A DNA stretch of 64,000 bases from Pseudomonadota bacterium. Lineage in GTDB: Bacteria; Pseudomonadota; Alphaproteobacteria; Sphingomonadales; Sphingomonadaceae. Under the pieces are notes generated by a model. That model did no database searches and was not told the origin of the DNA. It worked only from the letters and a program-made list of their open reading frames with translations. The position numbers were made by a program, and so were the translations under genes. Within the stretch, counting starts at the first letter, position 1. Each line of letters starts with the position of its first letter. This document shows, piece by piece, positions 21,432 to 64,000 of the stretch. The DNA is taken from positions 1 through 64,000 of the forward strand of contig CAUJJI010000216.1 of the NCBI GenBank assembly GCA_963205265.1, in the 5' to 3' direction.

Positions 21432-21433
21432 CC

Positions 21434-22765: not shown

Positions 22766-22846
22766 TGCGGTGGCGGGCGCAAATGGTCAACGAACGGGCC
22801 GCAGCACCAAAAATGGCCGATCAGATTGAAACACGGGAGCACTTCG

Positions 22847-23974: not shown

Positions 23975-24163
23975 AGTGGCAAAAAGTAGATTCGTCTATA
24001 CTCGGCTTCCTGAGTAAACTTTACATCGAGATTTCCAACTGCAGTACCAATGTTTTGGATAATACAGGTCGGGTATTTTCCTTTGGTCCGATTGACACCA
24101 AGGCATTGGCGATCGCGGTGGAATGAATTCCTGACTTCTGTCGCCTTCGCCGAATTTCCCTGC

Positions 24164-24916
24164 CTATTCCATCGATCGCTGCGTATCTTCAAGGGCGAGA
24201 TCGACCAGCACTCGCATGGCTGTCCGAGCGGCCTCGGGGTCGCTGGCAGCGATCGCCTCATAGACCCGTCGATGATCCGGAATCGGGTTGCGGGGCAGTG
24301 CGCGGGAACGTTGCTTGAATTGGGTCGTCCAGTTGACGGCCGCACCGATGCTGGAGCTGAGCACGACGAGCGCATCGTTGCGGGTGGCGCGCAGGATGGC
24401 ATCGTGAAAATCGCGATCCGCCGCACGGCCCGCTTCGCTGGCGAGACTATGCTGCCGCATCGCGTCAAGCGCATGTTCCATGGCTTTCAGATCGGCGGAA
24501 TCGCGCCGCTCGGCAGCCAGCGCGGTAGCAGCAGGCTCGACGATTGCCCTGAGTTCGAAAAGACTACGGATGAAAGCGATGTCGGGGTCGCCTGCAAAGG
24601 CCCATGCAAGCACATCGGGATCGAGCAGGTTCCAGCGGTTACGGGGCAGCACGCGCGTCCCGGTTTTCGGCCGGCTTTCGACAAGACCCTTGGCGATGAG
24701 GACCTGGACGGCCTCGCGATAGGCGGTGCGCGATACGCCAAGAGTTTCCGCCGCAATGACTTCCGCGCCAAGCACGTCGCCCGGCGCAATCTCGCCGGAC
24801 AGGATCGCAATGCCCAGCTTTTGGGCAATGGCGCCATGATGACGCCTGCCAGTGCCGAGCGGCTTGCGAGAAGCGCGGCCTTCTGGGTTTGCAATCGCGG
24901 GGTCGCTTCGCTTCAT
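24164..24916 (-). CDS. GntR-family regulator, FadR subfamily
   Basis: HTH ...AQKLGIAILSGEIAPGDVLGAEVIAAETLGVSRTAYREAVQVLIAKGLVESRPKTGTRV, FCD C-terminus. Confidence 0.9.
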   Translation of the reverse strand: MKRSDPAIANPEGRASRKPLGTGRRHHGAIAQKLGIAILSGEIAPGDVLGAEVIAAETLGVSRTAYREAVQVLIAKGLVESRPKTGTRVLPRNRWNLLDPDVLAWAFAGDPDIAFIRSLFELRAIVEPAATALAAERRDSADLKAMEHALDAMRQHSLASEAGRAADRDFHDAILRATRNDALVVLSSSIGAAVNWTTQFKQRSRALPRNPIPDHRRVYEAIAASDPEAARTAMRVLVDLALEDTQRSME

Positions 24917-25848
24917 TCCATATCTTCGAATCGCTCGGTTATGTAGGTAGTGCCGCGCAGGCAGGCATCGGCTACCAGTTGCAGGGGGGCGAGATCAACA
25001 TCGCTGGCCCCGCTCCGTACAAGGTCGACGAAGCGGCGGTACATGGCGCGGTATTCCTGCGTAAGGGTTGATTCTGCGCCAACTGCGGTATGCGCGGCAT
25101 CATCCCCGCCTTGGCTGAAGAGATAGAGTTCGTCTCCAGCCTCGAAGGCGATTTGCCAGATTTGCGGGCCGGTCTGACGCCAATCGAACGCGGCGCTGAT
25201 TGGCACGCCCTGCGCGGTCGCCATTTCCATGTCGACCGCAATGGGCGCAGCACGGCCTGCTGGAATGTGCAGCGCGGCGTCAATCAGGCGGATCTGGTCG
25301 TCCAGCACTTCGGTGAGGATCGAAAGCGCGTTGATCCCGGGATCGAACACGCCAAAGCCGCCGGCCTCCCAGATCCAGTCCTGCCCTGGATGCCAGCGAC
25401 GGACATCTTCCTTCCACGTGATCGCGATGCGGGTGAGCCTGCGCGCCGCGCACCATGCGCGGGCCTGCGCAACGGGCGCGGAATAGCGCGAATGCCAGCT
25501 GGCATAGAGCGTAAGGTTCTTGCGGCGCGCCAGATCGACCAGCGCATCGACTTCCGAAAGCGTGGCCCCCGGCGGCTTTTCCAGGAAGACGTGCTTGCCG
25601 GCGAGAAGGGCAGCGCAGGCGGCTTCATAGCGGACTGCCGGTGGCTGGCACAGGATAACCGCATCGATGTCTGGCTGGCCGGCCAGCATGGCGGTGAGAT
25701 CAGGATAGCATGCGATCCCCTCGGCTGCGGCGTTGCGACTGGCGACGGCGACCAGTTCCGCGCCCTGCGTGTGCGCGATCGCCGGCAGATGCTCGTCGCG
25801 GGCGATCTTGCCGAGGCCGACAAGACCCATGCGGATGGGCCGACTCAC
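24913..25848 (-). CDS. Gfo/Idh/MocA oxidoreductase, probable L-arabinose/D-galactose 1-dehydrogenase
   Basis: MGLVGLGKIARDEHLPAI; GKHVFLEKPPGATLSEVD; gene context. Confidence 0.8.
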   Translation of the reverse strand: MSRPIRMGLVGLGKIARDEHLPAIAHTQGAELVAVASRNAAAEGIACYPDLTAMLAGQPDIDAVILCQPPAVRYEAACAALLAGKHVFLEKPPGATLSEVDALVDLARRKNLTLYASWHSRYSAPVAQARAWCAARRLTRIAITWKEDVRRWHPGQDWIWEAGGFGVFDPGINALSILTEVLDDQIRLIDAALHIPAGRAAPIAVDMEMATAQGVPISAAFDWRQTGPQIWQIAFEAGDELYLFSQGGDDAAHTAVGAESTLTQEYRAMYRRFVDLVRSGASDVDLAPLQLVADACLRGTTYITERFEDME

Positions 25849-26825
25849 AGTGGCTTCACCGCAACGAAGCCCTCATCCTGCGCTCGCTGCAACGGATTGC
25901 GCAGCGGCAGCGAAAAGGCATCGGCCTCCAGTTCGAACACGTCGCCTTCCTGCGTGCGCAGGCCATCGGAGAACGACAGCGTCGCCGTGCCGAAATAGTG
26001 GACGTGCAGGTCGCCCGGGCGGCGGAAAAGGGTGTTCTTGAAGTGGTGGTGCTCGAGATTGGCGATCGAGTGCGACATGTTGGCCTCGCCCGAAAGGAAC
26101 GGCTTTTCCCAGATCACCTGGCCTTCGCGGCGGATGCGACTGATGCCGCGCACGTCGTCGGGCAACGCGCCGAGACGCAGTTCCGGTGCCAGGGCCGCCT
26201 GCCGCAACTTGGAGTGCGCGAGCCAGAGATAGTTGCCGCGTTCGATCACATGGTCGGAGAACTCGTTGCCCATGCAGAAGCCCAGCCGCACGGGCTGGCC
26301 ATGCTGATCGATCAGGTAGATACCGGCGATTTCCGGCTCCTCGCTGCCATCCTCGGCAAAGCTGGGCATGGTCAGCGGCGCGCCCTGTGCGACAAGGATC
26401 GAGCCGTCGCCCTTGTAGAACCATTCTGGCTGGACCCCGGCGGTGCCTGGCGCGGGCTTGCCGCCTTCCTCGCCCATCAGGAACATGCGCATCGAATCGG
26501 TCAGGTTCTCGCCGCCGGCAGCGGCCTTGTGCATCTTGTCGCGACCCTCGGCGGAACCGAGATGGGTCAACCCCGTGCCGGATACGAGCAGATGGGCAGA
26601 ATCCCGATGGTCAATCGGGCCCAGCAGCGTGACTTCGGCCAGATCGAACGCGGCGCCCTTGCGCTGCTCGGCCAGCTCGGCGAGCTGCAGCCCCGCGGCA
26701 ATCGCCTGCTGCGCCAGCTGCAAGGTGGTTTCCGCGCCGGACAGGACGAATGCATTGCCGGCTGCATCGAGTGCTCCGATGCCGCGCCGACCATTGCGGG
26801 CAAACTGGATCAGGGAGCGGATCAA
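25845..26825 (-). CDS. AraD1/GguC-type FAH-fold protein, probable 2-keto-3-deoxy-L-arabinonate dehydratase
   Basis: TGLTHLGSAEGRDKMH, MGNEFSDHVIERGNYLWLAHSKLR, FKNTLFRRPGDLHVHYFGTATLSFSDG; TTG start overlapping upstream stop. Confidence 0.78.
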   Translation of the reverse strand: MIRSLIQFARNGRRGIGALDAAGNAFVLSGAETTLQLAQQAIAAGLQLAELAEQRKGAAFDLAEVTLLGPIDHRDSAHLLVSGTGLTHLGSAEGRDKMHKAAAGGENLTDSMRMFLMGEEGGKPAPGTAGVQPEWFYKGDGSILVAQGAPLTMPSFAEDGSEEPEIAGIYLIDQHGQPVRLGFCMGNEFSDHVIERGNYLWLAHSKLRQAALAPELRLGALPDDVRGISRIRREGQVIWEKPFLSGEANMSHSIANLEHHHFKNTLFRRPGDLHVHYFGTATLSFSDGLRTQEGDVFELEADAFSLPLRNPLQRAQDEGFVAVKPL

Positions 26826-28405
26826 TGGCCCACCTCGCGAATGCCTTCGACCGTTCGCGGCAGGTTCCAGGGATTGGCGGACTGCAAGGCGGGCGGCAGC
26901 AGTCCGTCGGGAATGTCCTGATAGCACACCGGCCGCACAAACCGCGCCATGGCCAGCGTGCCGACCGATGTGGAGCGTGCATCGCTGGTGGCGGGGAACG
27001 GACCGCCGTGGACCATGGCCGGGCAGACCTCGACTCCGGTCGGCCAACCATTCGCCAGCACACGGCCTGCCTTGGCCTGCAAGAGCGGCAGCAGCGATGC
27101 GGCGGCGGCGCTGTCTTCGGGGCCCATGTGGAGCGTCGCGGTCAACTGGCCTTCGAGCCCCGCGATCACTGCGGCCATTTCGTCCAGATCGGCGCACCGC
27201 ACCAGCACGGCCGCGGCGCCGAACACCTCATGGCCCAGCGCGGCATCGGCAAGGAATGCTGCCGCGGTGGTTTCGAACAGCGCGGCAGTGCACCGGGTGG
27301 GGCTGGATGCCTGCGGGCCTTGCGCGATCCGGTGCGCGGCCTGGTTGCCCTCGAGCGCGGCGACGCCGGCCCGGTAGCTGTCGTGAATGCCCGGCGTCAG
27401 CATCACCAGCGGTTCGGCTGCCGCAATGGCTTCGCCTGCCGCTGCGACGAAGCGGTCCAGCGCTTCTCCCTCAACAGCGATAACCACCCCCGGGTTGGTG
27501 CAGAACTGGCCCGCGCCCAGCATCAGCGACGCAGCGAACCCGGTGCCAAGCGCATCGGCCCGGACCGCCAGCGCACTCGGCAGAAGGACGACGGGATTGA
27601 CGCTGCTCATCTCGGCATAGACCGGGATTGGTTCGGAGCGAGCTGCGGCCACGGCGACCAGCGCCAGCCCGCCGGCGCACGAACCGGTGAAGCCCACGGC
27701 CTTGATGCGCGGATCGCCCACCAAGGCCGCACCCAGATCGTTCGCAACGCCCGGCAGGAAGGAAAACACGCCTTCAGGCAGGCCGTGCGCGGCGACAGTC
27801 GCCTGGATGGCCCGCGCGACCAGTTCGCCAGTGCCGGGATGCGCCGGGTGGCCTTTGACCACGACCGGGCAGCCCGCCGCCAGGGCCGAAGCAGTGTCTC
27901 CGCCCGCCACCGAGAAGGCGAGCGGAAAGTTCGAAGCGCCGAACACCGCCACCGGTCCCAGCGCGACGTTCATCCGCCTAATGTCGGCACGCGGCGGCGT
28001 GCGATCAGGCAGGGCGGGATCGATGGTCACGTCCAGCCATTCCCCCCTGCTCAGCTCGGCCGCGAACATGCGCAGCTGCCCGCAGGTGCGACCGCGCTCG
28101 CCTTCCAGCCGCATGCGCGGCAGGCCGCTTTCGGTCATGGCGGTGGCGATAAGGTCATCGCCAATGGCGAGGATGGCCTCGGCCACAGCCTCAAGAAACG
28201 CCGCGCGCGCTTCTGGCCGCAGTGCGGAAAAGGCCGGAAAGGCCGCCTCGGCGAGCGCGCAGGCATCGGCGACGTCCCGATCACCCGCCGCGCAGAAAGA
28301 CTGGGGCAGGGTTTCCCCGGTGGAGGGGTTGACTGCATGGAACAGCGCGGCGCTGCGGCGGTTCCCGCTGCCGACGAGGATGCTTCCGTCAATCATCATT
28401 CTCAT
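26822..28405 (-). CDS. NAD(P)-dependent aldehyde dehydrogenase, probable 2-oxoglutarate semialdehyde dehydrogenase
   Basis: VFGASNFPLAFSVAGGDTASALAAGCPVVVKGHPAHPGT; GFTGSCAGG; GQFCTNPG. Confidence 0.85.
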   Translation of the reverse strand: MRMMIDGSILVGSGNRRSAALFHAVNPSTGETLPQSFCAAGDRDVADACALAEAAFPAFSALRPEARAAFLEAVAEAILAIGDDLIATAMTESGLPRMRLEGERGRTCGQLRMFAAELSRGEWLDVTIDPALPDRTPPRADIRRMNVALGPVAVFGASNFPLAFSVAGGDTASALAAGCPVVVKGHPAHPGTGELVARAIQATVAAHGLPEGVFSFLPGVANDLGAALVGDPRIKAVGFTGSCAGGLALVAVAAARSEPIPVYAEMSSVNPVVLLPSALAVRADALGTGFAASLMLGAGQFCTNPGVVIAVEGEALDRFVAAAGEAIAAAEPLVMLTPGIHDSYRAGVAALEGNQAAHRIAQGPQASSPTRCTAALFETTAAAFLADAALGHEVFGAAAVLVRCADLDEMAAVIAGLEGQLTATLHMGPEDSAAAASLLPLLQAKAGRVLANGWPTGVEVCPAMVHGGPFPATSDARSTSVGTLAMARFVRPVCYQDIPDGLLPPALQSANPWNLPRTVEGIREVGH

Positions 28406-28416
28406 TCCGTTCTGGT

Positions 28417-30216
28417 TCAGTGGTTGTCTCTGGGCAGGCCGCGCGTCTGGGCGATGCGCTGGAACTGCTCGGAACCTTCAAGGATCGCGCCACTTTCGAG
28501 CTGGCCGACGAGCGATCTCTGGATCGCCTGCCAGGGGGTCTGCGATGGCGGATAGGCATAGCCGCCTGCCGCTTCCAGCGCGGCGCGGCGCTCCGCCAGT
28601 TCCGCGTCGCGCAGGAGGGCATCTACCGTGCCGCGACCCAGATCAATCCGCACCCGGTCGCCCGTGCGCAGCAGGGCGAGCCCGCCTTTTTCTGCCGCTT
28701 CAGGCGAAGCGTTGAGGATTGAGGGGCTGGCGCTGGTGCCCGATTGCCGGCCATCGCCCATGCACGGCAGATCGCGCACGCCTTCGCGCAGCAAATAGGC
28801 CGGCGCGCGCATGTTGACCACCTCCGCAGAGCCGGGATAGCCGACAGGGCCCGCACCGCGCATCACCAGCAAGGTGTTGATGTCGATCCCGAGCGCGGGA
28901 TCGTCGATCCGCGCATGGTAGTCCTCGGGCCCGTCGAACACCACGACCTTGCCCTCGAAGGCTTCCGGGTCGGATGGATTGCTGAGATAGCGGGCGCGGA
29001 ATTCCGGGCTTATCACGCTGGTCTTCATGATCGCGGTGTCGAACAGGTTGCCCGACAGCACGATGAAGCCGGCGTCCTGCATCAGCGGCTGATCGAAGGG
29101 GCGGATTACCCGCTCGTCTGCGATCTCGGCTCCCCGGCAATTGTCGCCGATGCCGCGCCCGGAGACAGTCAGCGCGGCCTCGCGGATGAGGCCTGCGCCC
29201 ATTAGCTGGTTCAACACGGCGGGCACGCCGCCGGCATGATAGTAATCCTCGCCCAGGAATTCGCCCGCAGGCATCAGGTTGACCAGCAGCGGCACCTTGT
29301 GGCCGTGGTCCTGCCAGTCCTGCAGGGCCAGTTCTACGCCCATGTGCCGGGCGATGGCGGCGAGGTGGATTGGCGCGTTGGTCGATCCACCGATCGCGGA
29401 ATTGACGACGATGGCGTTGAGGAAGGCGTCGCGCGTCATGATGTCGGAGGGCTTGAGGTCTTCGCGCACCATGTCGACGATGCGCTTGCCGGTCCGATAG
29501 GCATTTTCCTGCCGGTCGCGGTAAGGTGCGGGGATTGCTGCGGAACCGGGCAGCGACATGCCGAGCGCTTCGGCCAGGCTATTCATCGTGGTCGCCGTGC
29601 CCATGGTATTGCAATAGCCGGTCGAGGGGGCGGAAGAGGCGACCAGCTTGATGAAACCGGTATGGTCGATCTCGCCCTTGCTCAGCATCTCGCGCGCCTT
29701 CCACACGATGGTGCCGCTGCCCGTGCGCTCCCCGCCTTGCTTGTTGGATGCATGCCAGCCGTTGAGCATCGGGCCGACCGACAGCACGATTGCGGGCAGA
29801 TTCACCGTTGCCGCCGCCATCAGCGCGGCTGGGGTGGTCTTGTCGCAGCCGGTGGTCAGCACCACCCCGTCGAGCGGATAGCCGTGCAGCACTTCGACAA
29901 GGCCGAGATAGGCGAGGTTGCGGTCCAGCCCGGCGGTGGGCCGCTTGCCGGTTTCCTGGATCGGATGGACCGGGAACTCGATGGCCACACCGCCCGCCTC
30001 ACGAATCCCCTCGCGCACGCGCTCGGCCAGCATCAAATGATGGCGGTTGCAGGGCGACAGATCGCTGCCTGTCTGGGCGATGCCGATGATCGGGCGGCCG
30101 GAGCGCAGCTCTTCTAGGCTCAGCCCGAAGTTGAGATAGCGCTCCAGATAGAGCGCGGTCATGTCGATGTTGTCCGGGTTGTCGAACCAGGCGGCCGAGC
30201 GCAGCTTGCGGGTCAT
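28417..30216 (-). CDS. IlvD/Edd-family dehydratase, probable L-arabinonate dehydratase
   Basis: [56 protein letters not shown]. Confidence 0.85.
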
Positions 30217-31352
30217 TTGGCAGTGCTCATCCGCAATACCATCGTGTGGCGGTAGGTTTGCCCGGGATCGAGCCGTGCCGACCCGAACTCCGGACGGTTG
30301 GGCGTGTCGGGGAATTTTTGCGGCTCGAGTACGAAGCCGTCACCCATCCGGTAGACGCAGCCGCCTTTGCCGATATTGGCACCGTCAATGAAGTTGCCGG
30401 TGTACATCTGTAGACCCGGCTCGGTGGACAGCACCTCCAGCACGCGGCCCGATGCCGGATCGACAACGCGGGCCACAAGCTGCGGCGTTGCAGTCTGGCC
30501 CTTGTCGAGAACCCAGTTGTGATCGTAACCGCGCCCGATACGGATCTGCGCATCGTTGCCTTCGCGCAGGCCATCGGCGAGCACGCGCCCCCGGCTGAAA
30601 TCGAACACGGTTCCGCGCACCGGCCTCAGTTCGCCGGTGGGGATCAGCGTTTCATCGACCGGAGTGTAGCGGCTGGCGGGTATGGTCAGCAGCTGGCGCA
30701 TCGCACCGTCGCGCGCACAGTGGCCCGCCAGGTTGAACAGCGCATGATTGGTCATGTTGACGATCGTCGGTTTGGTTGTCGTCGCCGCATGGTCGATCGT
30801 CAGCTCGCCCCGGTCGTTCAGCGAGTAGGTGACCGTCGTCTTCACCTCGCCGGGATAGACGGAATCGCCATCCGGGCTCATCAGCGAGAGCACGACCGAG
30901 GCCGTTGGGCCGCTGGTGATGGATTCCACTTTCCACAGCTGCCGGTCGAACCCGTTGACACCGCCGTGCAGCGTGTTGACGCCGTTGTTCACCGGAAGCT
31001 GATAGCTCTGCCCATCGAGCGCGAACCGGCCTTTTGCGATCCGATTGGCAAAACGGCCGACAGTAACGCCGAAGAAGTCCTGCTTCGCCTCGTATTCCGC
31101 AGCCGTATCGTGGCCCAGTACGATGTCAGCCAAGCGACCCTTGCTATCGGGCGCCACCAGCGATTGCAGGGTCGCGCCATAGGCAATGATCCGGGCCGAG
31201 ATGCCTGTGCTGCTCCGTAGAGTTACGGCCTCGACATTCGTGCCGTTGCGTAGCGTTCCGGCGGAGGAACGCTCGGCGGTGGCGGCATTGGCGGCGCTGC
31301 CCACGGCAAGGCACATCATTGTTGCCAGGGGAAGCAAGCGGGCGTTCTTCAT
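30213..31352 (-). CDS. Aldose 1-epimerase (mutarotase), secreted
   Basis: Signal peptide; [52 protein letters not shown]. Confidence 0.9.
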
Positions 31353-31398
31353 CGGATGCTTTTCCATTTTAGTTGCAAGGCCAGTTCGCAGTCTTGGC

Positions 31399-31734
31399 TC
31401 AAGGTGAACAACGACAACTGAATGCGGCGAGAGACGCAGGGTCAGCGCATCGCCATCGGTCTTCGCTGCGAACGGTTTGGCAGCCACTGCATTCGGCGCC
31501 GCAAAGGTGTTGATCGTATCCACCCGCTCCGACGCCGCCATAGATTCCCGTGCCGGGATGCACGGCAAACTGACCAAAAATGTCGCGGTTGATCACAGGG
31601 CCCGGCTTGTCCGCCCGAATGGTCAGCCGGCCTGGTGCCGCAACGGGTTGTTCCACCGCAACCTGCGCCCATGCCTGTCCGGAAAGCGCAAGGGTCATTG
31701 CCGCCACTGCGTGCCTGATCGCCTCGCCTGCCAT
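31399..31734 (-). pseudogene. GH51 alpha-L-arabinofuranosidase remnant: N-terminus joined to C-terminus, catalytic core missing
   Basis: N-term LTIRADKPGPVINRDIFGQFAVHPGTGIYGGV runs into, in another frame, VDTINTFAAPNAVAAKPFAAKTDGDALTLRLSPHSVVVVHLEP. Confidence 0.8.
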
Positions 31735-31849
31735 GCCCTTACTCCTGCTTGTCTGGCCGGGAAGATGGCCCCCAATGGCAAATCGTCCCGATTGACCGCA
31801 CTCCGATATACTCCTACTAATAAAATGACAACCGCAGGGAGGAATCATA

Positions 31850-33151
31850 GTGGCCGGACCAGCGCCAATCTCGGGCCCCGCAATGCAGTCCGGTCAAAGC
31901 GGCGCCCCTGCCACGGGTCCAGCCTACGGCAAGACGCTGGCTTTGCTGGCCAGCCTGTTTTTCATGTGGGGCTTCATCACCGTGATCAACAACACGCTGC
32001 TGCCGCACCTGCGTAGCGTATTTGATCTCAATTATACGCAGACCACCCTGATCGAATCGGTCTGGTTCATCGCCTATTTCGTCGCCTCGATGCCCTCGGC
32101 CTTCCTGATCGAGCGGGTGGGCTACAAGAAGGCGATCGTCATTGGCCTGCTGATCATGGCGGCGGGGTCGCTCGGCATGATCCCGGCGGCGCGGGTGCCA
32201 TCCTATGAAGTGACGCTGGTCGCTCTGTTCGTCATCGCCAGCGGCATCGCGCTTCTGCAGGTTGCTGCCAATCCCTATGTCGCCGTCATCGGGCCGCCGG
32301 AAACTTCCGAATCGCGCCTGACGCTGGTGCAGGCGTTCAACTCGATGGGCACGTTCTTCGCCCCCTATTTCGGCGGCTATCTGATCCTCAGCCGCACGGT
32401 TTCGGGCACGACGTTGGAAGGCGGCGCCCTCAGCCTCGAGCAGCGCACCGCCGACGCGCTCGCCACGCAATTGCCCTATGCGCTGGTGGCCGTGGTGCTG
32501 GTGATCCTGGCTTTCGTAATCTCACGTGCCAGCCTGCCCACGCTTGGCGAGGAGACCCGCCGCGCCAACGCGGAAGAACGCAAGCACCTGTCGCTTTGGA
32601 ACCACCGGAATCTTGTCTGGGGAGTGCCGGCAATCTTCATCTACCTGATCGCCGAGATCGGCGTCGCCAACCTGTTCATCAATTTCGTCTCGCAGCCACA
32701 CATCGGCAAAATGACCCATGCCACGGCTGCCAACTACCTCATCCTGTTGTGGGGCGGGATGATGGTCGGGCGGTTTGCCGGCGCATTCCTGATGCGCACG
32801 ATCCCGGCGAACAAAGTGCTGGCCGCATTTTCGCTGGCCGCGCTGGCGGTGATGTTGGCGGCGGCGACACTGCACGGACCCATAGCCATGTGGGCGCTTA
32901 TCCTGGTCGGACTGTGCCATTCAATTATGTTCCCGACGATCTTCGCGCTGGGCATCAAGGATTTGGGACCGATGACAGAAGAGGGATCGGGGCTGCTCAT
33001 CACCGCGATCGCCGGCGGCGCGCTGGTCGTGGTGCAAGGCTGGCTAGCCGACCGCTATGGCCTGCAACAGAGCTTCTTCCTCACTGCCGCCTGCGAGCTC
33101 TATGTGCTGTGGTACGCGATCTGGGGCAGCAAATCCAAGGCCGCCGCGTGA
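31850..33151 (+). CDS. FucP-type sugar MFS transporter
   Basis: SLFFMWGFITVINNTLLPHLRSVFDLNYTQTTLIESVWFIAYFVASMPSAFLIERVGYK; GTG start. Confidence 0.88.
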   Translation: MAGPAPISGPAMQSGQSGAPATGPAYGKTLALLASLFFMWGFITVINNTLLPHLRSVFDLNYTQTTLIESVWFIAYFVASMPSAFLIERVGYKKAIVIGLLIMAAGSLGMIPAARVPSYEVTLVALFVIASGIALLQVAANPYVAVIGPPETSESRLTLVQAFNSMGTFFAPYFGGYLILSRTVSGTTLEGGALSLEQRTADALATQLPYALVAVVLVILAFVISRASLPTLGEETRRANAEERKHLSLWNHRNLVWGVPAIFIYLIAEIGVANLFINFVSQPHIGKMTHATAANYLILLWGGMMVGRFAGAFLMRTIPANKVLAAFSLAALAVMLAAATLHGPIAMWALILVGLCHSIMFPTIFALGIKDLGPMTEEGSGLLITAIAGGALVVVQGWLADRYGLQQSFFLTAACELYVLWYAIWGSKSKAAA

Positions 33152-34011
33152 TTCCAGCAGTCGGTCTCGTCTGGGATGTCGGCACCCAATTGGGCGAGGG
33201 CCCAGTGTGGTGCCCGAACGAACAGGCGCTTTGGTTCGTCGATATCAAAGGCGGCATGGTGCACCGCCATGTGCCCGAAGCCAATGCCAACACGAGTTTC
33301 GCAACGGGTGGAATGCCAAGCTTTATTGTGCCGTCAATCAACGGTGACATGATCGTCGGATCGGGAGGCGACATCTACCGGCTCGCCAACGGCCAATTCT
33401 GCGAACAGATTGCCGCAATCGACATGCCTGCCCACAACCGCACCAACGACGCCACCGTCGATGCGTTGGGAAGGTTATGGCTTGGCACGATGGATGATGA
33501 CGAAGCGCAAGCGACCGGCGCGCTCTACTGCCTCGACCGCGGCGTGCTGCACCAGCTGCCGGCAACCGCTGTTGTCACCAACGGCCCGGCGATCACTGCC
33601 GATGCGCGAATGCTCTATTTCGTCGATTCCGCCCGGCGCCGCATCTGGCGCTACGCTATCGAGGATGGACCTGCCCTCGCCCCGCCAGACCTGTTCCTTG
33701 AGCTTGGCGAGGCTGACGGCCATCCCGATGGAGTGGTGCTCGACAGCGAAGACTGCCTTTGGGTTGCGCTTTGGGACGGCTGGGGCGTGCGACGCTATGC
33801 ACCCGACGGCACGCTGCTGATGCAAATCGACATGCCCTGCCAGCGCGTGACCAAGATCGCATTCGGCGGACCGGACCTGCGCACGGCCTATGTTACGACG
33901 GCACGCACCGGTTTGAGCGAAGCGGAGCTGGCGCGGCAACCGCTGGCAGGTGGGCTGCTCGCCTTCGCTGCCCCGGCGCCGGGACGGCCGCTAGAGAGCT
34001 TACGACTTTGA
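33148..34011 (+). CDS. SMP-30/gluconolactonase-family lactonase, probable L-arabinolactonase
   Basis: LGEGPVWCPNEQALWFVDIKGGMVHRH; NRTNDATVDALGRLWLGTMDDDE; GTG start overlapping previous stop. Confidence 0.85.
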   Translation: MIPAVGLVWDVGTQLGEGPVWCPNEQALWFVDIKGGMVHRHVPEANANTSFATGGMPSFIVPSINGDMIVGSGGDIYRLANGQFCEQIAAIDMPAHNRTNDATVDALGRLWLGTMDDDEAQATGALYCLDRGVLHQLPATAVVTNGPAITADARMLYFVDSARRRIWRYAIEDGPALAPPDLFLELGEADGHPDGVVLDSEDCLWVALWDGWGVRRYAPDGTLLMQIDMPCQRVTKIAFGGPDLRTAYVTTARTGLSEAELARQPLAGGLLAFAAPAPGRPLESLRL

Positions 34012-50364: not shown

Positions 50365-50964
50365 TTACCTTTTTTGAGTCGCCCGCTTGAAGCGCCTCAC
50401 GATTGATGAGGGTTGTGCCGAAAGCCCCAGGTCTCTTTTGACGTAGTGCGCCGCCTCTGACGCATTCCTGCCCCTGGCAATGTACGCATCCATTCGCCGC
50501 ACAATCTCAGTGGTCTCCAGCTTGTGCAGTGTGTTGAATGCATCCGACCAAATCCTGCCCACAGTCCGCTTTTGCTTGCCCAGGACCATCTCTCGTCCGA
50601 ACGCCTTACGCCACTGCCAGTCATTCCAAATTTCTGCCATCGCGACGGTGCGCAACATGTCCACGGTTCCGTATTGCTCGCCGCACTTTTCTAGCAACAA
50701 TGCGCATTTGCTTGCCACCTGCGCGGCATACCAAAGGTCTGTGAATGGAGTCGCGTCGATAGGATATTTTGACTCCGGGGTGCGGACCCAGTTGCGCTCA
50801 TCAAACACCGCCTGGCATTCTCGCAGACGCTCGACAAGAAGTGCTTCAAGGCCGCCGTCCGTAGCCAAGCTTTCCCATTCCACCCTACGGTGCACAAGAC
50901 GTTGCACATCGTCCTCAAACACGATCTGCCCATCGCCATTGGGCTGCATAGCGTCGGCAGTCAC
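50365..50964 (-). CDS. Hypothetical protein
   Basis: 199-aa ORF overlapping integrase stop. Confidence 0.6.
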   Translation of the reverse strand: MTADAMQPNGDGQIVFEDDVQRLVHRRVEWESLATDGGLEALLVERLRECQAVFDERNWVRTPESKYPIDATPFTDLWYAAQVASKCALLLEKCGEQYGTVDMLRTVAMAEIWNDWQWRKAFGREMVLGKQKRTVGRIWSDAFNTLHKLETTEIVRRMDAYIARGRNASEAAHYVKRDLGLSAQPSSIVRRFKRATQKR

Positions 50965-52127
50965 AGCGCCAACCTTTCAAGAGCTTCGGTAGCAGCCCCA
51001 CGGGTCAAATGCCCGTAGTGGCGCTCAATCATCTCGGCGCTCGTGCCGCTGATCTGCGCGACGGTCAGCAAGGGCAAACCGTCATTCACCAGGTCGGTGA
51101 TCGTGCTGTGCCGCAGCGTGTACGCTGTCGTATTGGCCGGCAGGCCCGCGCCTTTCGCCGCCGCCCCGATGGCGTCTCCCCAAGTGTTGCGATCCCAGGC
51201 GTCGCCAGTTGCCCGTCGAAACAGGAGCACGGCGGGGAGCTTGTCTTTTGACTGGTCGGCGAACAGCGCCGCAGCCGTCGCCGGTATGACGATCCGCCGG
51301 TCGTTGCCCGACTTGTCCTTGCCGATCGTCAGTTCGGACGTGCGCTTGTCGAAGTTGCCGGCGGTCAGGGCCGCCATCGCGCCGGGCCGCAACGGCAACA
51401 GGCAAAGCGCTCGTACGAAGGGCGCGGCCTCGGTGTCGATGTGCGCCAGCAGCTTCCGCCGTTCATCCTTGTCAAGGTAGAGCAACCGCCGCTTGTCGGC
51501 GCTCTTGAATGGCCTCAGTGCCTCCTGCCATGCGGCCTCGGTGTTTGGCGTGCCCGGTGCGAGCACCTTGTTCAGAGCGGCTCGTAACGGAACCATGTCG
51601 CGGTTGACCGTGGACTTTGCCCGCTCCCGCGTGCGCTGGTCGCCCTCCTTGCTTCGGCTGACGACGGCGGGAGCACCCTCAAGTCGCTTGCGCCATTCCT
51701 TCAGATGGTTCCGGCGCAGCTTGTCTAGCCTCACCTTGGCCAGCGGGTCGCTGTAAACGTGGCGTCGAAAGACTCCCTCGGCGATCCCGTTGTCATCATC
51801 GATCGATGCGAGATAGCTGAGGCAGGCGTCAGCTACCGTTTCGATCTTCTCCTTCGCGACTCCGCCAGCTTCGACAATATCCGCGAACGCCTCGGCCTCC
51901 TTCTTCGCGGCGGCGAACCGATCCCGGGATGGCAGCCCGGCAAAGTCCCCCAGGGCTCTCAGTCGATAGCTTCGCTTGTCCTCGTCGTAGGCGCGAGCAA
52001 TCCAGGTTCCGGCGCCCTCGCGTGCCGAAGGGCGATAGCCGATATACCTGCCGGGGCTGAGTCGCTGCCAGTAAGGCTCGCGCCGCGCCTTCAACGCTTC
52101 CCGTTGCTTTACCGTGCTGAGGTCCAT
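50961..52127 (-). CDS. Tyrosine-type site-specific integrase
   Basis: ALCLLPLRPGAMAALTAGNFDK; TAYTLRHSTITDLVNDGLPLLTVAQISGTSAEMIERHYGHLT. Confidence 0.95.
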   Translation of the reverse strand: MDLSTVKQREALKARREPYWQRLSPGRYIGYRPSAREGAGTWIARAYDEDKRSYRLRALGDFAGLPSRDRFAAAKKEAEAFADIVEAGGVAKEKIETVADACLSYLASIDDDNGIAEGVFRRHVYSDPLAKVRLDKLRRNHLKEWRKRLEGAPAVVSRSKEGDQRTRERAKSTVNRDMVPLRAALNKVLAPGTPNTEAAWQEALRPFKSADKRRLLYLDKDERRKLLAHIDTEAAPFVRALCLLPLRPGAMAALTAGNFDKRTSELTIGKDKSGNDRRIVIPATAAALFADQSKDKLPAVLLFRRATGDAWDRNTWGDAIGAAAKGAGLPANTTAYTLRHSTITDLVNDGLPLLTVAQISGTSAEMIERHYGHLTRGAATEALERLAL

Positions 52128-52143
52128 TTTTGCCGCTCCGCTG

Positions 52144-52166
52144 TTCCGTACGAAAGATGTACGGAA
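52144..52166. repeat. Island-terminal inverted repeat TTCCGTAC-N7-GTACGGAA (right copy), upstream of int
   Basis: TTCCGTACGAAAGATGTACGGAA; same arms and spacing as 10494-10516. Confidence 0.85.
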
Positions 52167-52259
52167 AACTATGGCGGATTGCAATAGACTACCCTGACTA
52201 GAAAATGGCGGAAATTAGAGGATTCATTGTCTATCCTGCTCCACCGAGATGCAATTATA

Positions 52260-57080: not shown

Positions 57081-58001
57081 TCACCGCACCCCGAGCAGCG
57101 CCGCCTGCTCGCGCAGTTCCGCCGCGCGCGCCGGGTTGGCGGCGACGGCCGCCCCCAGCGCGGCCTTCGCCTTTTCCTCCTCGCCCAGCGTCATCCGGCT
57201 GCGGATCAGCATGATCCAGCCTTCGACATTGCCGGGCTGCTGCTCGAGCCGCGCTTCGAGGCGGGCGACCATGCCCTCGGCCATGTCGCGTTGCCGGCTG
57301 GGCGGGATGGCCGATGCCGCACGCAGGTCCTGCGCGTCGGGGCCGGGGATCGCGCGGGTGGCGAGCGGAGCCGCCGCCGCCGGTGACCTGGCGGAAGCCG
57401 CCGCGATCCGCGCGGCGACGTCGATGCCGTTGATCTTGCCGACCTGCTCGATGGTGCGGACGAGGTCGCTGCGCCAGGGGGCATCGGCCGGCGAATCCTC
57501 GAGCAGGGCCAGCCAGTCGCCGATCGCCCCGGCATGGTCGCCGGCGAGGTCGCGCTTCACCGCGAGGAAATAGCGCGACCGTTCGTCGCCGGCATTGAGC
57601 GCGAGGGCCTTTTCGAAAGCCGCGACGGCCGCGGCGGGCATGGGATCGCGCTCGCTGGCCATGACGTGCGCCTCGCCCAGCGCCGCCCAGAGGATCGCCT
57701 TGCCGGGCGCCAGCGCCGTCGCCCGCTCGTAGGCGCGGACGGAGTCGGCAAAGCGGCCTTGCGAGAAATAGGCCAGACCCAGCGATCCCCAGGCGGTGCC
57801 GTTCTGCGGATCTGCCTGCACTTTCGCTTCCAGCGCATCGATCGAGAGCGTGCCGGCGGAAGCGGTGGCTTGCGCGGCCGGAGCCGGCTCGGCGGCGCGC
57901 TGGCGCCAGATGCCATAGGCCACTGCCAGCACGGCGACCAGGGCTGCGGCGAGCAGCACCAAGGTCCCGCCCCGCGGGCCTCTAGCAGCGTCCCTGTCCA
58001 T
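57081..58001 (-). CDS. Membrane-anchored TPR protein (CcmI/CcmH-like, cytochrome c biogenesis)
   Basis: Single N-terminal TM then TPRs LEAKVQADPQNGTAWGSLGLAYFSQGRFADSVRAYERATALAPG. Confidence 0.75.
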   Translation of the reverse strand: MDRDAARGPRGGTLVLLAAALVAVLAVAYGIWRQRAAEPAPAAQATASAGTLSIDALEAKVQADPQNGTAWGSLGLAYFSQGRFADSVRAYERATALAPGKAILWAALGEAHVMASERDPMPAAAVAAFEKALALNAGDERSRYFLAVKRDLAGDHAGAIGDWLALLEDSPADAPWRSDLVRTIEQVGKINGIDVAARIAAASARSPAAAAPLATRAIPGPDAQDLRAASAIPPSRQRDMAEGMVARLEARLEQQPGNVEGWIMLIRSRMTLGEEEKAKAALGAAVAANPARAAELREQAALLGVR

Positions 58002-58071: not shown

Positions 58072-60609
58072 GTGCAGAGCGGTGGGGGGATCGCCGTGGT
58101 TGACAGCGTCCGCATTGCCATAGTGGGTTCGGGGCCGGCAGGGCTCTCTGCCGCGGCGCGCGCAGCGCAGCTGCAGATTCCGCATGTCCTGCTGGAAAAG
58201 ACCGACCACCTCTCCGACACGATCTACAAGTACCAGAAGGGCAAGCACGTCATGGCGACGCCCTCGTCGCTGGTGCTGCGCTCGGACCTCGATTTCGCGG
58301 CGGGCAAGCGCGAAGCCGTGCTCGAGACCTGGGACGCGCAAAGCGCCCAGCGTGGTGCAGCGGTCCGGCTGCAGGCGGACGTCGTCGGCATCGCGGGCGC
58401 CAAGGGCGATTTCACGCTGACGCTCAAGGGCGGCGGCACGATCAAGGCCGAGGCGGTGATCCTGGCGATCGGCACCCAGGGCAATCCCAATCTGCTGCGC
58501 TGCCCGATCGGCGAAGGCGCGGTGGTGCAGTATCAGCTCGACGATCCCGACGAATATATCGACGAGCACATCACCGTCATCGGCACCGGCGACGCCGGCA
58601 TCGAGAACGCGATGGGGCTTGCCGCCAATCCCGAGCAGCGCAACGTCGTCAGCATCCTCAACCGCTCGACCGAGTTCGCCTCGGCCAAGGACGCCAACGT
58701 CAAGGCGCTGCTGGCGATGGAGCAGGCGGGCCGCATCCAGATACTGCGCGAGACCACCGTCGCGCGCATCGATCGCGGCACGATCACGCTCGACACCCGC
58801 GACGGCGAGCTGACGATGCCGTGCAGCCGGGTCATTTCGCGCATGGGCTCGGCGCCGCCGCGCGCCTTCGTCGAGGCCTGCTGCGCCGCGTTCGAGGATA
58901 AGGACGGCAAGCGCGTGATCGTGCCGGGCACCGGCGTGCAGTTCACCAGCGCCGACCGCGTCGCCTATCCGAAGCTGTCCCCGCAGTTCGAAACGACAGT
59001 GCCGGGCATCTACGTGATCGGCGCGCTCGCCGGCTATCCGCTGATCAAGCACTGCATGAACCAGGGCTACGACGTGGTCGAGTTCATCAACGGCAACACC
59101 GCGCTCAAGCCCGCGGACGAGCCGATTCTCGCCGCGAAGTTCGCCGCCCTGCCCGGCGATCGCCCGGTCGACGAATGGCTGGAGCTGTTCGGCAGCGGCA
59201 TCGACATCTTCCGCGAGGTCTCGCCCTTGCAGCTGCGCGAGCTGATGCTCGATTCGCAGGTCCACGCCTTCGCCGCCGGCGAAGTGATCTTCGAGCGCAA
59301 CGATCCCGGCTCGTCGCTGTTCGCCATCGCCCGGGGATCGGTGCTGGTGCAGGTCGACAAGGACGATCCGGGCAAGACCGTGGCGATCGGCCAGGGCTCG
59401 ATCTTCGGCGAGGTCGGCCTGATTTCGGGCCGGCGCCGCGGCGCGACGATCCGCGCGGCGGAACCGACGGTCGCGGTCGAGCTGGACCGCAACGCCGCGC
59501 TGAAGCTGATCTCGACGGTCCCGGCCGCCGGCCGGGCGATCACCCGCACGTCGATCGAGCGGCAGCTGCTGCAGATCTTCGGTTCGGGGCTGACCGCCGA
59601 AGACGTCGCCGAAGTGGTCGATGCCGCCGAAGTCCAGACCAGGCGCGCGGGCGAGGTGGTGCTGGCCGAAGGCGACGCCAACGACGCGCCGGGCGGCAGG
59701 GACGTCTTCATCATCCGCCGCGGCTCGATGATCGTCGAGAAGGCGATCGCCGGCAAGCAGGTGTTCCTCAGCTATCTGCCGGCCGGCTCCTATGTCGGCG
59801 AAATGGCGTTGATCGACAATGCGCCCCGCTCGGCAACGGTCAAGGCGGCGATCAAGTCGGAAGTCATCCGCCTGCCCGGCGACGCCTTCGCCCGTCTGCT
59901 CGAACGCAAGCCCGAGCTGCTGCGCCGTGCCCGCGCCGACATGGAGGACCGGCGCCAGATCAACAGCTTCATCGAGGGCCGCAAGGAGAACTTCTCGGGC
60001 GCCGTCGACCTCTATTCGCAGACCGCGCAGTTCCTGCTCGACAACGGCGTCGGCGAGGCGACCGACGTGCTGCTGATCGACGAGAAGCTCTGCGTCGGCT
60101 GCGACAATTGCGAAAAGGCCTGTGCCGACAGCCACGAGGGGCTGTCGCGGCTCGATCGCGAGGCCGGGACGACCTATGCCCATCTCCACGTCCCGACCAG
60201 CTGCCGGCACTGCGAGCACCCGCACTGCATGGCCGATTGCCCGCCCAACGCCATCCACCGCGGCCAGGACGGCGAGGTGTTCATCGACGACAGCTGCATC
60301 GGCTGCGGCAATTGCCAGCGCAACTGCCCCTACGGCGTGATCCGCATGGACAGCGTGCCGCCGCCGCGGCCTTCGCTGCTCAAATGGCTGTTCCTCGGAG
60401 AGGGGCCGGGGCCTGGCGAGCCGACCAAGGCCTGGCGCAAGCAGCATGCCGTGCCGGGCGAGGAGAGCCCGAAGAAGGCGATCAAGTGCGACATGTGCTC
60501 GGGCATCGACGGCGGCCCGGCCTGCGTCCGCGCCTGCCCGACCGGGGCGGCGATCCGCGTCTCGCCCGAGACCTTCCTGTCGGTCGCGCGGATGGGGGAG
60601 GAAGGCTGA
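58072..60609 (+). CDS. Fused FAD/NAD(P) oxidoreductase + two cyclic-nucleotide-binding domains + four 4Fe-4S motifs
   Basis: GSGPAGLSAAARAAQ; FGEVGLISGRRRGATI and VGEMALIDNAPRSATV; CVGCDNCEKAC, CRHCEHPHCMADCP, CIGCGNCQRNCP, CDMCSGIDGGPACVRACP. Confidence 0.92.
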   Translation: MQSGGGIAVVDSVRIAIVGSGPAGLSAAARAAQLQIPHVLLEKTDHLSDTIYKYQKGKHVMATPSSLVLRSDLDFAAGKREAVLETWDAQSAQRGAAVRLQADVVGIAGAKGDFTLTLKGGGTIKAEAVILAIGTQGNPNLLRCPIGEGAVVQYQLDDPDEYIDEHITVIGTGDAGIENAMGLAANPEQRNVVSILNRSTEFASAKDANVKALLAMEQAGRIQILRETTVARIDRGTITLDTRDGELTMPCSRVISRMGSAPPRAFVEACCAAFEDKDGKRVIVPGTGVQFTSADRVAYPKLSPQFETTVPGIYVIGALAGYPLIKHCMNQGYDVVEFINGNTALKPADEPILAAKFAALPGDRPVDEWLELFGSGIDIFREVSPLQLRELMLDSQVHAFAAGEVIFERNDPGSSLFAIARGSVLVQVDKDDPGKTVAIGQGSIFGEVGLISGRRRGATIRAAEPTVAVELDRNAALKLISTVPAAGRAITRTSIERQLLQIFGSGLTAEDVAEVVDAAEVQTRRAGEVVLAEGDANDAPGGRDVFIIRRGSMIVEKAIAGKQVFLSYLPAGSYVGEMALIDNAPRSATVKAAIKSEVIRLPGDAFARLLERKPELLRRARADMEDRRQINSFIEGRKENFSGAVDLYSQTAQFLLDNGVGEATDVLLIDEKLCVGCDNCEKACADSHEGLSRLDREAGTTYAHLHVPTSCRHCEHPHCMADCPPNAIHRGQDGEVFIDDSCIGCGNCQRNCPYGVIRMDSVPPPRPSLLKWLFLGEGPGPGEPTKAWRKQHAVPGEESPKKAIKCDMCSGIDGGPACVRACPTGAAIRVSPETFLSVARMGEEG

Positions 60610-61511
60610 TGGCGAGCGTCGCTTCGCGTACCGAGCCGGCGGCCGAAGCCGCGGCCACGCCGCGCCCGTCGCGGCTCGTCCAGACCAGCCACGAGGGCTT
60701 CCTGCGCCATGCCCGCTTCCGCTGGCTCAAGATCGCCGCCGTGCTCAGCCTCGCGGCGATCGTCGGCTACTTCGCCGCCGACGTCGAGCCGCGGCCCAAC
60801 GGCGGCAGCTGGTACGGATACCTGCTGGGCACGATCGGCGCGCTGCTGATCGTCTGGCTGTCGCTGATCGGCATCCGCAAGCGGGCGATGACGCCGGGCA
60901 AGTGGTCGCTCAAGGCCTGGACCTCGGCGCACGTCTACCTCGGCCTCTCGCTGATCGTCGTGGCGACGCTGCACACCGGCTTCCAGCTCGGCTGGAACGT
61001 GCACACGCTGGCCTATGGGCTGATGCTGCTGGTGATCGCCTCGGGCGTGTTCGGCATCGTCGTCTACGCCAACCTGCCGCAGGCGCTCAGCAACAACCGC
61101 GAGCAGATGACCCAGCGCCAGATGATCGAGGCGGTGCAGGCGCTCGATCGCCAGCTGCAGGACGCGGCGCAGCCGCTGGGGCGCGGCCAGGCCGACCTGG
61201 TCATCGCCGCCCTGGCCGAGGACCCCTTCGGCGGCGGCATCTCGCGGCGGCTGTCGGGCCGCTACCCCGGTTGCGCGACGGCACGCGCGATCGAGGGGCT
61301 CGGCCTGGCCGACGCGCGCGGGGCCGGCGATCCGGCGAGCGACAAGGTGGTGAAGCTGCTGATCCGCCGCCAGACGCAGCTGGCGCGCATCCGGCGGCAC
61401 TTGCGCATCAGGGCGCTGCTCGAGATCTGGCTCTACGTGCACGTGCCGGCGACCTTCGCGCTCATCGCCGCGCTGTTCGCCCATATCCTCAGCGTGTTCT
61501 TCTACTGGTAG
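60609..61511 (+). CDS. Integral membrane protein, b-type-cytochrome-like
   Basis: ~5 predicted TM helices with intramembrane His (AHVYLGL, LHTGF, NVHTLAYG, YVHVPATF, FAHILSV); TGATG overlap with previous gene. Confidence 0.75.
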   Translation: MASVASRTEPAAEAAATPRPSRLVQTSHEGFLRHARFRWLKIAAVLSLAAIVGYFAADVEPRPNGGSWYGYLLGTIGALLIVWLSLIGIRKRAMTPGKWSLKAWTSAHVYLGLSLIVVATLHTGFQLGWNVHTLAYGLMLLVIASGVFGIVVYANLPQALSNNREQMTQRQMIEAVQALDRQLQDAAQPLGRGQADLVIAALAEDPFGGGISRRLSGRYPGCATARAIEGLGLADARGAGDPASDKVVKLLIRRQTQLARIRRHLRIRALLEIWLYVHVPATFALIAALFAHILSVFFYW

Positions 61512-61526: not shown

Positions 61527-63239
61527 ATGGCATTCAGGCTCAGGCAGATCGAAGTCACCGCCGCCGGGCGCGAGATCGTGCGCGACCGCGCCGTCGCCGG
61601 GAAGCTGCTCGTCGTCGGCCGCGCGGCGGACAGCGACATCCACTTGCCCGACCTCGCCATCGAACCGCGGCATGCGACGATCGACCTGCGCCACGACGGC
61701 CGGGTCGAAGTCGTCGCGGCGGCCGGGACGCTGGGCTTCGGCTGCGACGGCGAAACCGTCACCGAGGCGGTGATCGACCCCGCAACCGGGGCGGAGCTGC
61801 GGTTCGGCAGCTACCGCCTCACCCTGTCGCGCGAGGCGGACGGCACGGTGCTCGTCCAGGTGCGGCTGGCCGATCGCGAGGATGCGGGCGGCTCGCTCGA
61901 GGACAAGCTGGGCTTCTCGCTCGGCGGCGTGCTTCCGGGCAAGCGCCGGGTGGCCTGGATCGTCGCGGCCGCGGTGGTGCTGCTGTTCCTGTTCCTGCCG
62001 ATCGGCAGTTTCCTGACTCGCGGCAGCGGCCAGACGGTGATCGGCGACAGCAGCTGGAGCGCCGGCAAGCTGAGCCTGGCGCACCACGCGCTCGAGGATC
62101 GCTGCGAGGCCTGCCATGTCAACGCCTTCGTCTCGGTCCGCGATGCGACCTGCAAGGGCTGCCACAAGAGCGTCGGCGATCATGCCGACCATGCCCGGCT
62201 GGCCGAGGCCCGCGCCGGCGGCCCGCTCGGCCGCCAGTTCCTCGACGCGGCGGCGCGCGCCTTCGGCCGGGAAGGCGCGGGATCCTGCGCCTCCTGCCAT
62301 ATCGAGCACCAGGGCCTGGCGCGGATGGCAGCGCCGGCGCAGCGCTTCTGCGGCGATTGCCACGGCGGCCTCAAGGAAAGGCTCGCCCATACCCAGCTCG
62401 GCGACGCCAGCGACTTCGGCACGCACCACCCGCAGTTCACCCCGGCGCTGGTCAGCGATCCGTTCACCCGCAAGCGCATCGCCGTCTCGCTCGACGCCAA
62501 GCCGCGCGAGAACAGCGGCCTTGCCTTCTCGCACCGGTTGCACCTCGACAAGCTCGGCGGCGTCGCGCGCATGGCCGCTTCGTTCCGCGGCGAGCGCGGC
62601 TACGGCGCCAGGGGCCTCGTCTGCGGCGACTGCCACCGTCCCAGCGAGGATGCGCTGCGCTTCAAGCCGATCGACATGGAGCGCGACTGCGAAGGCTGCC
62701 ACAGCCTCGCCTACGACCGGGTGGGGCCCATCGTCCGGCGCCTGCGCCACGGCGACGTCGAGCAGATGATCGCCGATCTCAGCGTCTCGACCAATGCCGA
62801 CGTGCCGCTGGTCGGCGATCGCACGCGGCCGGGCATCCAGGCGCAGGGCCGGCCCTACCGCTTCGCCTATGCGCCGCCGGCCTACAATGCCGCGCTGATC
62901 CGCGGGGCCCTGTCGCGCGACGGCATCTGCGGCGAATGCCACACGCCCAGCTTCTCGGGCGGCCTGCCCGGCGTGGTTCCCGTGACGCTGCCGACGCGCT
63001 ATATGCAGCAGGGCTGGTTCGATCATAAGGCGCACAAAGGGGAGACATGCACGTCGTGCCATCTGGCCGAGAAGTCTTCGTCGTCCGGCGACGTGCTGCT
63101 GCCTGGGATCGCCAGCTGCCGCAGCTGCCACCAGGGCGAGGATGCGGCCAAGGCCAAGGTGCCCTCGGGCTGCGCCATGTGCCACAGCTACCACCCGCCC
63201 TTCGCCGCGCCGGGCCGCGATCGGCTGGCGCGGAACTGA
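61527..63239 (+). CDS. FHA domain-TM-decaheme c-type cytochrome
   Basis: FHA-like VVGRAADSDIHLPDLAIEPRHATIDLR; TM VAWIVAAAVVLLFLFLPIG; ten CxxCH motifs. Confidence 0.88.
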   Translation: MAFRLRQIEVTAAGREIVRDRAVAGKLLVVGRAADSDIHLPDLAIEPRHATIDLRHDGRVEVVAAAGTLGFGCDGETVTEAVIDPATGAELRFGSYRLTLSREADGTVLVQVRLADREDAGGSLEDKLGFSLGGVLPGKRRVAWIVAAAVVLLFLFLPIGSFLTRGSGQTVIGDSSWSAGKLSLAHHALEDRCEACHVNAFVSVRDATCKGCHKSVGDHADHARLAEARAGGPLGRQFLDAAARAFGREGAGSCASCHIEHQGLARMAAPAQRFCGDCHGGLKERLAHTQLGDASDFGTHHPQFTPALVSDPFTRKRIAVSLDAKPRENSGLAFSHRLHLDKLGGVARMAASFRGERGYGARGLVCGDCHRPSEDALRFKPIDMERDCEGCHSLAYDRVGPIVRRLRHGDVEQMIADLSVSTNADVPLVGDRTRPGIQAQGRPYRFAYAPPAYNAALIRGALSRDGICGECHTPSFSGGLPGVVPVTLPTRYMQQGWFDHKAHKGETCTSCHLAEKSSSSGDVLLPGIASCRSCHQGEDAAKAKVPSGCAMCHSYHPPFAAPGRDRLARN

Positions 63240-63249: not shown

Positions 63250-64000
63250 TTGCTGATCGCGCAGATCACCGACACCCATGTCGGCTTCGATCGGGGCAAT
63301 CCCGACGAGGCCAATTTCCGGCGCCTGACAGCGGCGGTGCGGCACCTTGCCGAGGGGCCGAACCGCCCCGATCTCGTGCTGCTGACCGGCGACCTGACCG
63401 AGTTCGGCGACGCGGACAGCTATGTCCGCCTGGCGGAAGCCGTGCGCCCCTGCCCCTGCCCGGTCTGGCCGATGGTCGGCAACCACGATGCCCGCGCGGC
63501 GCTGCTCGCCGGCTTTCCCGATACTCCGCTGGCCGGCGGCTTCGTGCAATATGCCCTCGAATTCGACGCGCTGCGGCTGCTGGTCCTCGACACGCTCGAG
63601 CCGGGCCGTCACGGCGGCGCCTTCTGCGCCGACCGCGCGGCCTGGCTGAAAGCGCGCCTTGCCGAGCGGCCGGACGTGCCGACGATCATCGCCATGCACC
63701 ACCCGCCTTTCGCCGCCGGCCTCGCCTGGCTCGACAGCGACCCCGGCGAGGCCTGGATCGCGCGCTTCGCCGATGCGATCGGCGGCCATGGCCAGGTCGC
63801 CGGCATCGTCTGCGGCCATCTCCACCGCACTATCCATACGCAGTGGAACGGCGTGGCGCTGACCGTATCCGGCTCGACCGCGCCGGGCGTCGCTCTCGAT
63901 CTCAGGCCGGTCGACAGCGAACGTCCCGACGGCCGGGCGATGATCGTCGACGACTTGCCGTCGTACGCCCTGCATTGGTGGGACGGTACGCGCCTGATCT
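63250..64000 (+). CDS. Class III cyclic-nucleotide phosphodiesterase-like metallophosphoesterase (CpdA-like), partial at window edge
   Basis: Open frame from TTG: ITDTHVGFD, LTGDLTEFGD, MVGNHDAR, MHHPPFAAG, CGHLHRTIHTQWNG; absent from the ORF track because no stop lies in the window. Confidence 0.85.
   Translation, partial: MLIAQITDTHVGFDRGNPDEANFRRLTAAVRHLAEGPNRPDLVLLTGDLTEFGDADSYVRLAEAVRPCPCPVWPMVGNHDARAALLAGFPDTPLAGGFVQYALEFDALRLLVLDTLEPGRHGGAFCADRAAWLKARLAERPDVPTIIAMHHPPFAAGLAWLDSDPGEAWIARFADAIGGHGQVAGIVCGHLHRTIHTQWNGVALTVSGSTAPGVALDLRPVDSERPDGRAMIVDDLPSYALHWWDGTRLI

Follow-up and report, generated by a model that had tools for sequence, protein, structure and literature searches.

DsrMKJOP and Hmc share a layout in which a cytosolic Fe–S protein is combined with a membrane cytochrome b and a periplasmic multiheme cytochrome c, and the regulation of respiratory and extracellular electron chains is thought to act mainly through expression and substrate supply. 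In extracellular conduits such as MtrCAB, PioAB, MtoAB and those of Geobacter, genes for a barrel-like protein and multiheme cytochromes are clustered. Fe–S flavoproteins of the AegA/YgfT type carry ferredoxin clusters and an NAD(P)H–FAD domain in one chain. Cyclic nucleotide-binding (CNB) domains joined to an activity that they control are known from the mycobacterial acetyltransferase Pat, the EAL protein Bd1971, CNG channels and the regulatory subunits of PKA (PKA-R), none of which controls an electron-transfer chain, the role that we propose for the protein described here.

We analyzed a window of 64,000 nucleotides (positions 1 to 64,000 of contig CAUJJI010000216.1) from a genome of the Sphingomonadaceae, at the end of which lie four genes, here called A to D. 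A–B–C is, as far as sequence comparison can tell, real, conserved and apparently undescribed, and probably a form of transmembrane electron conduit, with allosteric gating as a well-motivated hypothesis. Its layout is that of DsrMKJOP and Hmc, but it is made of other protein families, and those complexes have neither a flavin–CNB unit nor an FHA domain on the cytochrome.

Gene A occupies an uninterrupted forward-strand frame of 845 aa (58072–60609). Its true start is most likely the GTG at 58096, where the family alignment and the annotated homolog of Sphingobium sp. TomTYG65 begin, which would give a protein of 837 aa; residue numbers here refer to the 845-aa frame. The product is a fusion of an FAD/NAD(P)H oxidoreductase, two CNB domains and four [4Fe-4S] sites. 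Pfam assigns residues 14–332 (58111–59067), a TrxR/YpdA-like FAD- and NAD(P)H-binding domain, to Pyr_redox_3 (E 5e-24) and Pyr_redox_2 (E 8e-21), finds two cNMP_binding stretches (PF00027, E 1.4e-31), which are CNB-A (59266–59514, residues 399–481) and CNB-B (59647–59901, about residues 526–610), and places Fer4 families over residues 667–826 (60070–60549), a HycB-like ferredoxin domain. The CNB pair is thus placed between the flavin and Fe–S parts. By phmmer and profile searches, the PDB matches were YpdA/Bdr and TrxR-like FNR for the flavin part, PKA/PKG regulatory domains and CRP for the CNB part, and formate hydrogenlyase HycB for the Fe–S part (7z0s, E 3e-21 over residues 667–831); Pat, Bd1971, MlotiK1 and PKA-R were among the sequence matches. 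The sequence-only reading had posited three functions in this one chain, which Pfam, the PDB matches and residue conservation bear out, and it had looked to AlphaFold for the domain parsing. A model built from the window protein and 42 homologs delivered this for the flavin and CNB folds, mostly at pLDDT 80–95, with the same parsing as Pfam and Foldseek matches to YpdA, FNR and PKA-R; the Fe–S part, mostly at pLDDT <50, was uninformative for fold. The same fusion recurs in hundreds of independent assemblies, ruling out chance, a sequencing error or a frame artefact.

The best NCBIfam scores on A were to single domains and far below cutoffs, and the RefSeq label of its homologs derives solely from the CNB domain. 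By these comparisons, the parts of A can each be placed in a known family and the whole polypeptide cannot; open-access papers were searched for the fusion and none describing it was found, a result that argues weakly for its absence from the literature. At least 585 relatives were confirmed, and the best 80 of these, nearly all labelled Sphingomonadales, are 65–80% identical over almost the whole length. Among evenly drawn genomes, A was matched in 26 of 289 Alphaproteobacteria (E <1e-100) and in 15 of 399 Pseudomonadota (E <1e-60), most matches being full length; divergent members are 42–56% identical. One genome (G289, contig C17, locus L108) has a second copy of A that is not beside B and C.

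Residue conservation was assessed in 88 aligned sequences reaching down to 42% identity. A has 21 Cys, of which 16 are invariant and five vary. The invariant ones make up four C-x2-C-x(2/4/8)-C-x3-C motifs over about 160 aa, confirming the four ferredoxin-like clusters noticed earlier; the accompanying term "dicluster ferredoxin" counted too few, as A has four [4Fe-4S] sites. The order and spacing of these motifs are those of HycB-type ferredoxins (7z0s; HycB3 of HDCR, 7qv7), which conduct electrons between a redox site and a partner protein. Unlike in the HycB-type subunits, the ferredoxin of A is the C-terminal domain of a flavoprotein, and its presumed partner is a cytochrome b. AegA/YgfT-type proteins, which were matched in NCBIfam over the Fe–S part only, have the reverse domain order and lack CNB domains.

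In the flavin domain, G19, G21 and G24 are invariant, as are G171 and G173 of the second Rossmann motif; both motifs lie within one domain of 320 aa. This two-Rossmann FAD/NAD(P)H fold is common to A, TrxR-like FNRs (3ab1) and YpdA/Bdr (S. aureus YpdA, 7a7b). A TrxR-type arginine motif is kept only in part, so that either NADH or NADPH may be preferred. With YpdA/Bdr and TrxR as the best matches of this domain, A might be a thiol/disulfide reductase of the bacillithiol or thioredoxin reductase type that has acquired further domains. We consider this very improbable: the flavin half has neither a conserved CxxC nor any invariant Cys in the 88 sequences, and the YpdA score of 88.6 bits is well under the cutoff of 339.9. 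The variation of the five other Cys and the lack of a conserved CxxC set A apart from TrxR-type disulfide reductases; FNRs likewise have no CxxC. Unlike both the FNRs and YpdA, A is fused to two CNB domains and to its own four-cluster ferredoxin.

Both CNB domains have a CNB fold by profile and a phosphate-binding cassette with Gly-Glu and Arg. In CNB-A the cassette is FGEVGLISGRRRGATI (residues 445–460; G446, E447, R454, R456 and T459 invariant), and in CNB-B it is VGEMALIDNAPRSATV (residues 575–590; G576, E577, R586 and A588 invariant). The first reading had named pockets without ligand residues as grounds for giving up cNMP control, and this refutation fails, since the Glu and Arg of both pockets (E447/R456 and E577/R586) are invariant in 88/88 sequences. 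CNB folds that use no ligand exist in other families, and the pair in A could similarly have lost cNMP binding and be structural, serving dimerisation or docking to B. That this is so seems quite unlikely to us, as the constancy of the cassette Glu and Arg down to 42% identity would be unexpected for a relic, and a cyclase and a phosphodiesterase are linked to the system. We favor a pair that binds a ligand, most likely cAMP or another cNMP; the residue following the cassette Arg is Gly, Thr or Ser and does not settle the base. Matches to A in PADLOC cover essentially the CNB regions, and A has no effector domain such as TIR; an anti-phage reading, as Pycsar or another defence system with a CNB-linked effector, was therefore rejected. 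By the tests made, A falls outside the Mtr, YpdA and Pycsar families.

The start of gene B (60609–61511, +) shares one base with the stop of A (TGATG), and genes C (61527–63239, +) and D (63250–64000, +, continuing to about position 64098 of the contig) follow, D being the fourth gene of the operon. In 80 Sphingomonadales loci, several of them cut by contig ends, A, B, C and D were present in 80, 78, 76 and 70, respectively, and 17 of 20 distant Pseudomonadota loci had A–B–C as a group. As judged from these loci, the functional unit is the A–B–C membrane module, which extends beyond the single chain considered in the sequence-only reading. Nearly always accompanied by genes for a heme protein of the membrane and a cytochrome with ten hemes, A looks like the inner terminus of an electron cable through the envelope. 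Upstream of A and divergent from it, at 57081–58001 (−), lies a gene for a CcmI/CycH-like TPR protein of cytochrome c biogenesis that is kept in most Sphingomonadales: a CcmI-like gene, mostly divergent from A, was present in 76 of the 80 loci, and CcmF or CcmI-like genes adjoin A. No recognisable D was found in the operons of the 20 distant loci, and cNMP control may therefore be wired differently there.

B is a membrane protein with the pattern of a two-heme cytochrome b. Five of its His are nearly invariant, and among these the pairs His108/His122 and His278/His292, each spaced by 14 (His-x13-His), are invariant and fall on helices in the structural model too; two b-hemes stacked between two transmembrane helices are predicted. 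The heme-b assignment rests on this His pattern together with a match to the b561 family (PF01292, E 1.3e-4) that is below the Pfam cutoff. A PDB profile search with B gave no relative, and Foldseek gave no fold match to its AlphaFold model, a poor one built from 34 sequences. By the positive-inside rule, the long loop at 157–270 is probably cytoplasmic.

The character of B bears on the main rival to an outward path. Electrons might instead run inward or be linked to quinone, with B drawing on quinol, or C on an external or periplasmic donor, and with A reducing NAD(P)+ or ferredoxin while the CNB domains still regulate. The sequence fixes no direction, the hydrogenase and b561 cytochromes b that B weakly resembles are quinone-linked, and the FNRs that the TrxR-like domain also resembles are reversible. 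Against this, B has no recognisable quinone site and A has a complete flavin domain of the NAD(P)H type, and we regard an inward or quinone-linked conduit as doubtful, with perhaps half the weight that we give to the outward one.

C consists of an N-terminal FHA domain with matches to GarA/OdhI, a single hydrophobic TM-like helix (about residues 143–165) and a cytochrome part in which Pfam, motifs and alignment find ten invariant CXXCH and ten other conserved His, the ligand set by which we identify it as a bis-His decaheme cytochrome c. The FHA domain suggests a second, phosphothreonine input to the module. The attachment of an FHA domain to a decaheme cytochrome c by way of a TM-like helix is just as unusual as the fusion with CNB domains in A, and no description of FHA-decaheme proteins was found in open-access papers; PMC10734482 proved to be a false lead, as "Fha" there denotes filamentous haemagglutinin. 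On one Sphingobium replicon (L131:3081-6522), genes for a Ser/Thr kinase, a protein with a T6SS-FHA C-terminal domain and a PP2C phosphatase lie about 15 kb from the A operon, a possible source of phosphothreonine for the FHA domain, with the proviso that this proximity is no evidence of a link.

D is a metallophosphoesterase of the CpdA/SpdA type with the full metal-site motifs. Its scores are 84.6 bits against the CpdA cutoff of 225 and 138.7 bits against the SpdA cutoff of 400, and activity on 2',3'-cNMP is possible.

A second, distal module accompanies A–B–C. Distant loci have, near A–B–C, genes for a c554-like cytochrome, a small secreted protein, an HbpS-like protein of 640–790 aa and a barrel-like protein of ~610 aa. 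In the genome of the window the distal module is on another contig, C9 (stretch 18000–33801, with the operon at 3921–15508 of that stretch), where a CHASE2-class III cyclase is followed by the c554-like cytochrome (four CXXCH), the HbpS-like lipoprotein, the barrel-like protein and a cytochrome of 1336 aa with ten CXXCH and LVIVD repeats. These five genes form one tightly packed operon, in which the stops and starts of the last four overlap. Of 66 Sphingomonadales loci with sufficient flanking sequence, 46 have the LVIVD cytochrome gene convergent after D, often with the barrel gene behind it. The contig of the window and C9 end just after D and the LVIVD gene, respectively, as would be expected were they joined in the convergent order of the relatives; a comparison of the two ends found no common sequence. 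On two large Sphingobium replicons, A–B–C and the distal set are contiguous. Across the 289 Alphaproteobacteria, 20 genomes had the barrel-like protein and 19 the LVIVD cytochrome, and all of these belong to the 26 that carry A (naive hypergeometric p about 1e-25, a value inflated by shared ancestry); six of the 26 had no barrel match.

The distal module resembles the Mtr-type conduits in clustering a barrel-like protein with multiheme cytochromes. Unlike theirs, its barrel-like protein matches no MtrB, PioB or Geobacter porin family, and no family or structure was matched in Pfam, NCBIfam or the PDB; the presence of LVIVD repeats on the cytochrome is a further difference, and a transport role is our inference. 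No description of the LVIVD cytochrome was found in open-access papers.

The CHASE2 cyclase, whose gene immediately precedes the distal module in the genome of the window, has class III motifs. It also accompanies the distal module in Sphingobium, where its identity as a cyclase was established by sequence in one of the two replicons, and stands upstream of CycH-A in five loci (L024, L051, L052, L069 and L072); the protein is of a common type, and the linkage is absent from some loci. Together, D in the A operon and this cyclase upstream of the distal module of the same genome suggest cNMP gating of A. Beyond the contiguous set, the same Sphingobium replicons have a gene for a CHAT protein and, at a greater distance, genes for a ShlB/FhaC protein and a protein of 2000 aa. 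In one of them the CHAT (caspase-like) protein is beside the CHASE2 cyclase (L132:11841-14927), and between the cyclase and the cytochromes lie genes for the secretion protein of ShlB/FhaC type and for a protein of 2092 aa that has no match in Pfam (L132:17797-25950).

We propose that A–B–C is a cNMP-regulated conduit carrying electrons from NAD(P)H to the periplasm and probably further outward, a reading that we hold to be somewhat more probable than all others combined. A would be the cytoplasmic entry (or exit) unit, in which the FAD of the TrxR-like domain may take electrons from NAD(P)H and hand them to the four [4Fe-4S] clusters, from which they would pass to the two b-hemes of B, across the inner membrane, and on to the ten c-hemes of C on the periplasmic side. 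The c554-like cytochrome, the HbpS-like and barrel-like proteins and the ten-heme LVIVD cytochrome would then probably take them in the direction of the outer membrane or through it. The path and its direction, like the gating, the identity of the cNMP, an outer-membrane location and the final acceptor, are what we infer. With the CNB pair lying between flavin and clusters, a movement driven by cNMP could join or separate the two halves of A, and binding may in this way control their docking or the electron transfer between them. In a local circuit, the linked CHASE2 cyclase would supply the ligand, probably cAMP, and the CpdA/SpdA-like D would degrade it, and C would probably read phosphothreonine through its FHA domain in the cytoplasm.

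The signalling parts are numerous for a single enzyme: A has two CNB domains and an FHA partner, a cyclase and a phosphodiesterase are encoded in the neighborhood, and a kinase/FHA/PP2C cluster lies ~15 kb off in one Sphingobium. A could accordingly be mainly a redox-and-cNMP signalling protein, its chain reporting the redox state of the cell, with the CNB domains or partners transmitting the signal and little flux passing. Conservation of ligands for FAD, four [4Fe-4S] clusters, two heme b and ten heme c, along with the linkage of further cytochromes, suggests electron traffic instead, and A has no output domain; we judge a predominantly signalling role unlikely.

Returning to the regulated conduit, its strongest form is a cable gated by second messengers, in which cNMP on A and phosphothreonine on the FHA domain of C would directly switch electron transfer from NAD(P)H, through the inner membrane, to multiheme cytochromes of the periplasm and outer membrane. 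Such a cable would have a cyclase and a phosphodiesterase of its own and would be present in many Alphaproteobacteria that are not known to respire extracellularly. We put this forward as a tentative possibility, one that we would at present sooner doubt than accept. If true, electron flow would be under direct allosteric control by second messengers through two CNB pockets on A and the FHA domain on C. The proposal is testable, because the chain occurs widely among sphingomonads, a largely aerobic group that grows readily in culture. A common role is further suggested for several genes named only "cyclic nucleotide-binding domain-containing protein", "cytochrome c3 family protein", "heme-binding protein" or "hypothetical protein".

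Two further observations concern the surroundings of A. In one distant genome (L115:9845-12906), genes for a caspase-like peptidase (C14 + SH3) and a trypsin-like protease lie directly upstream of A. In the window, 50961–52184 (−) holds an ORF that, judged by its translation only, resembles a phage-type tyrosine recombinase.
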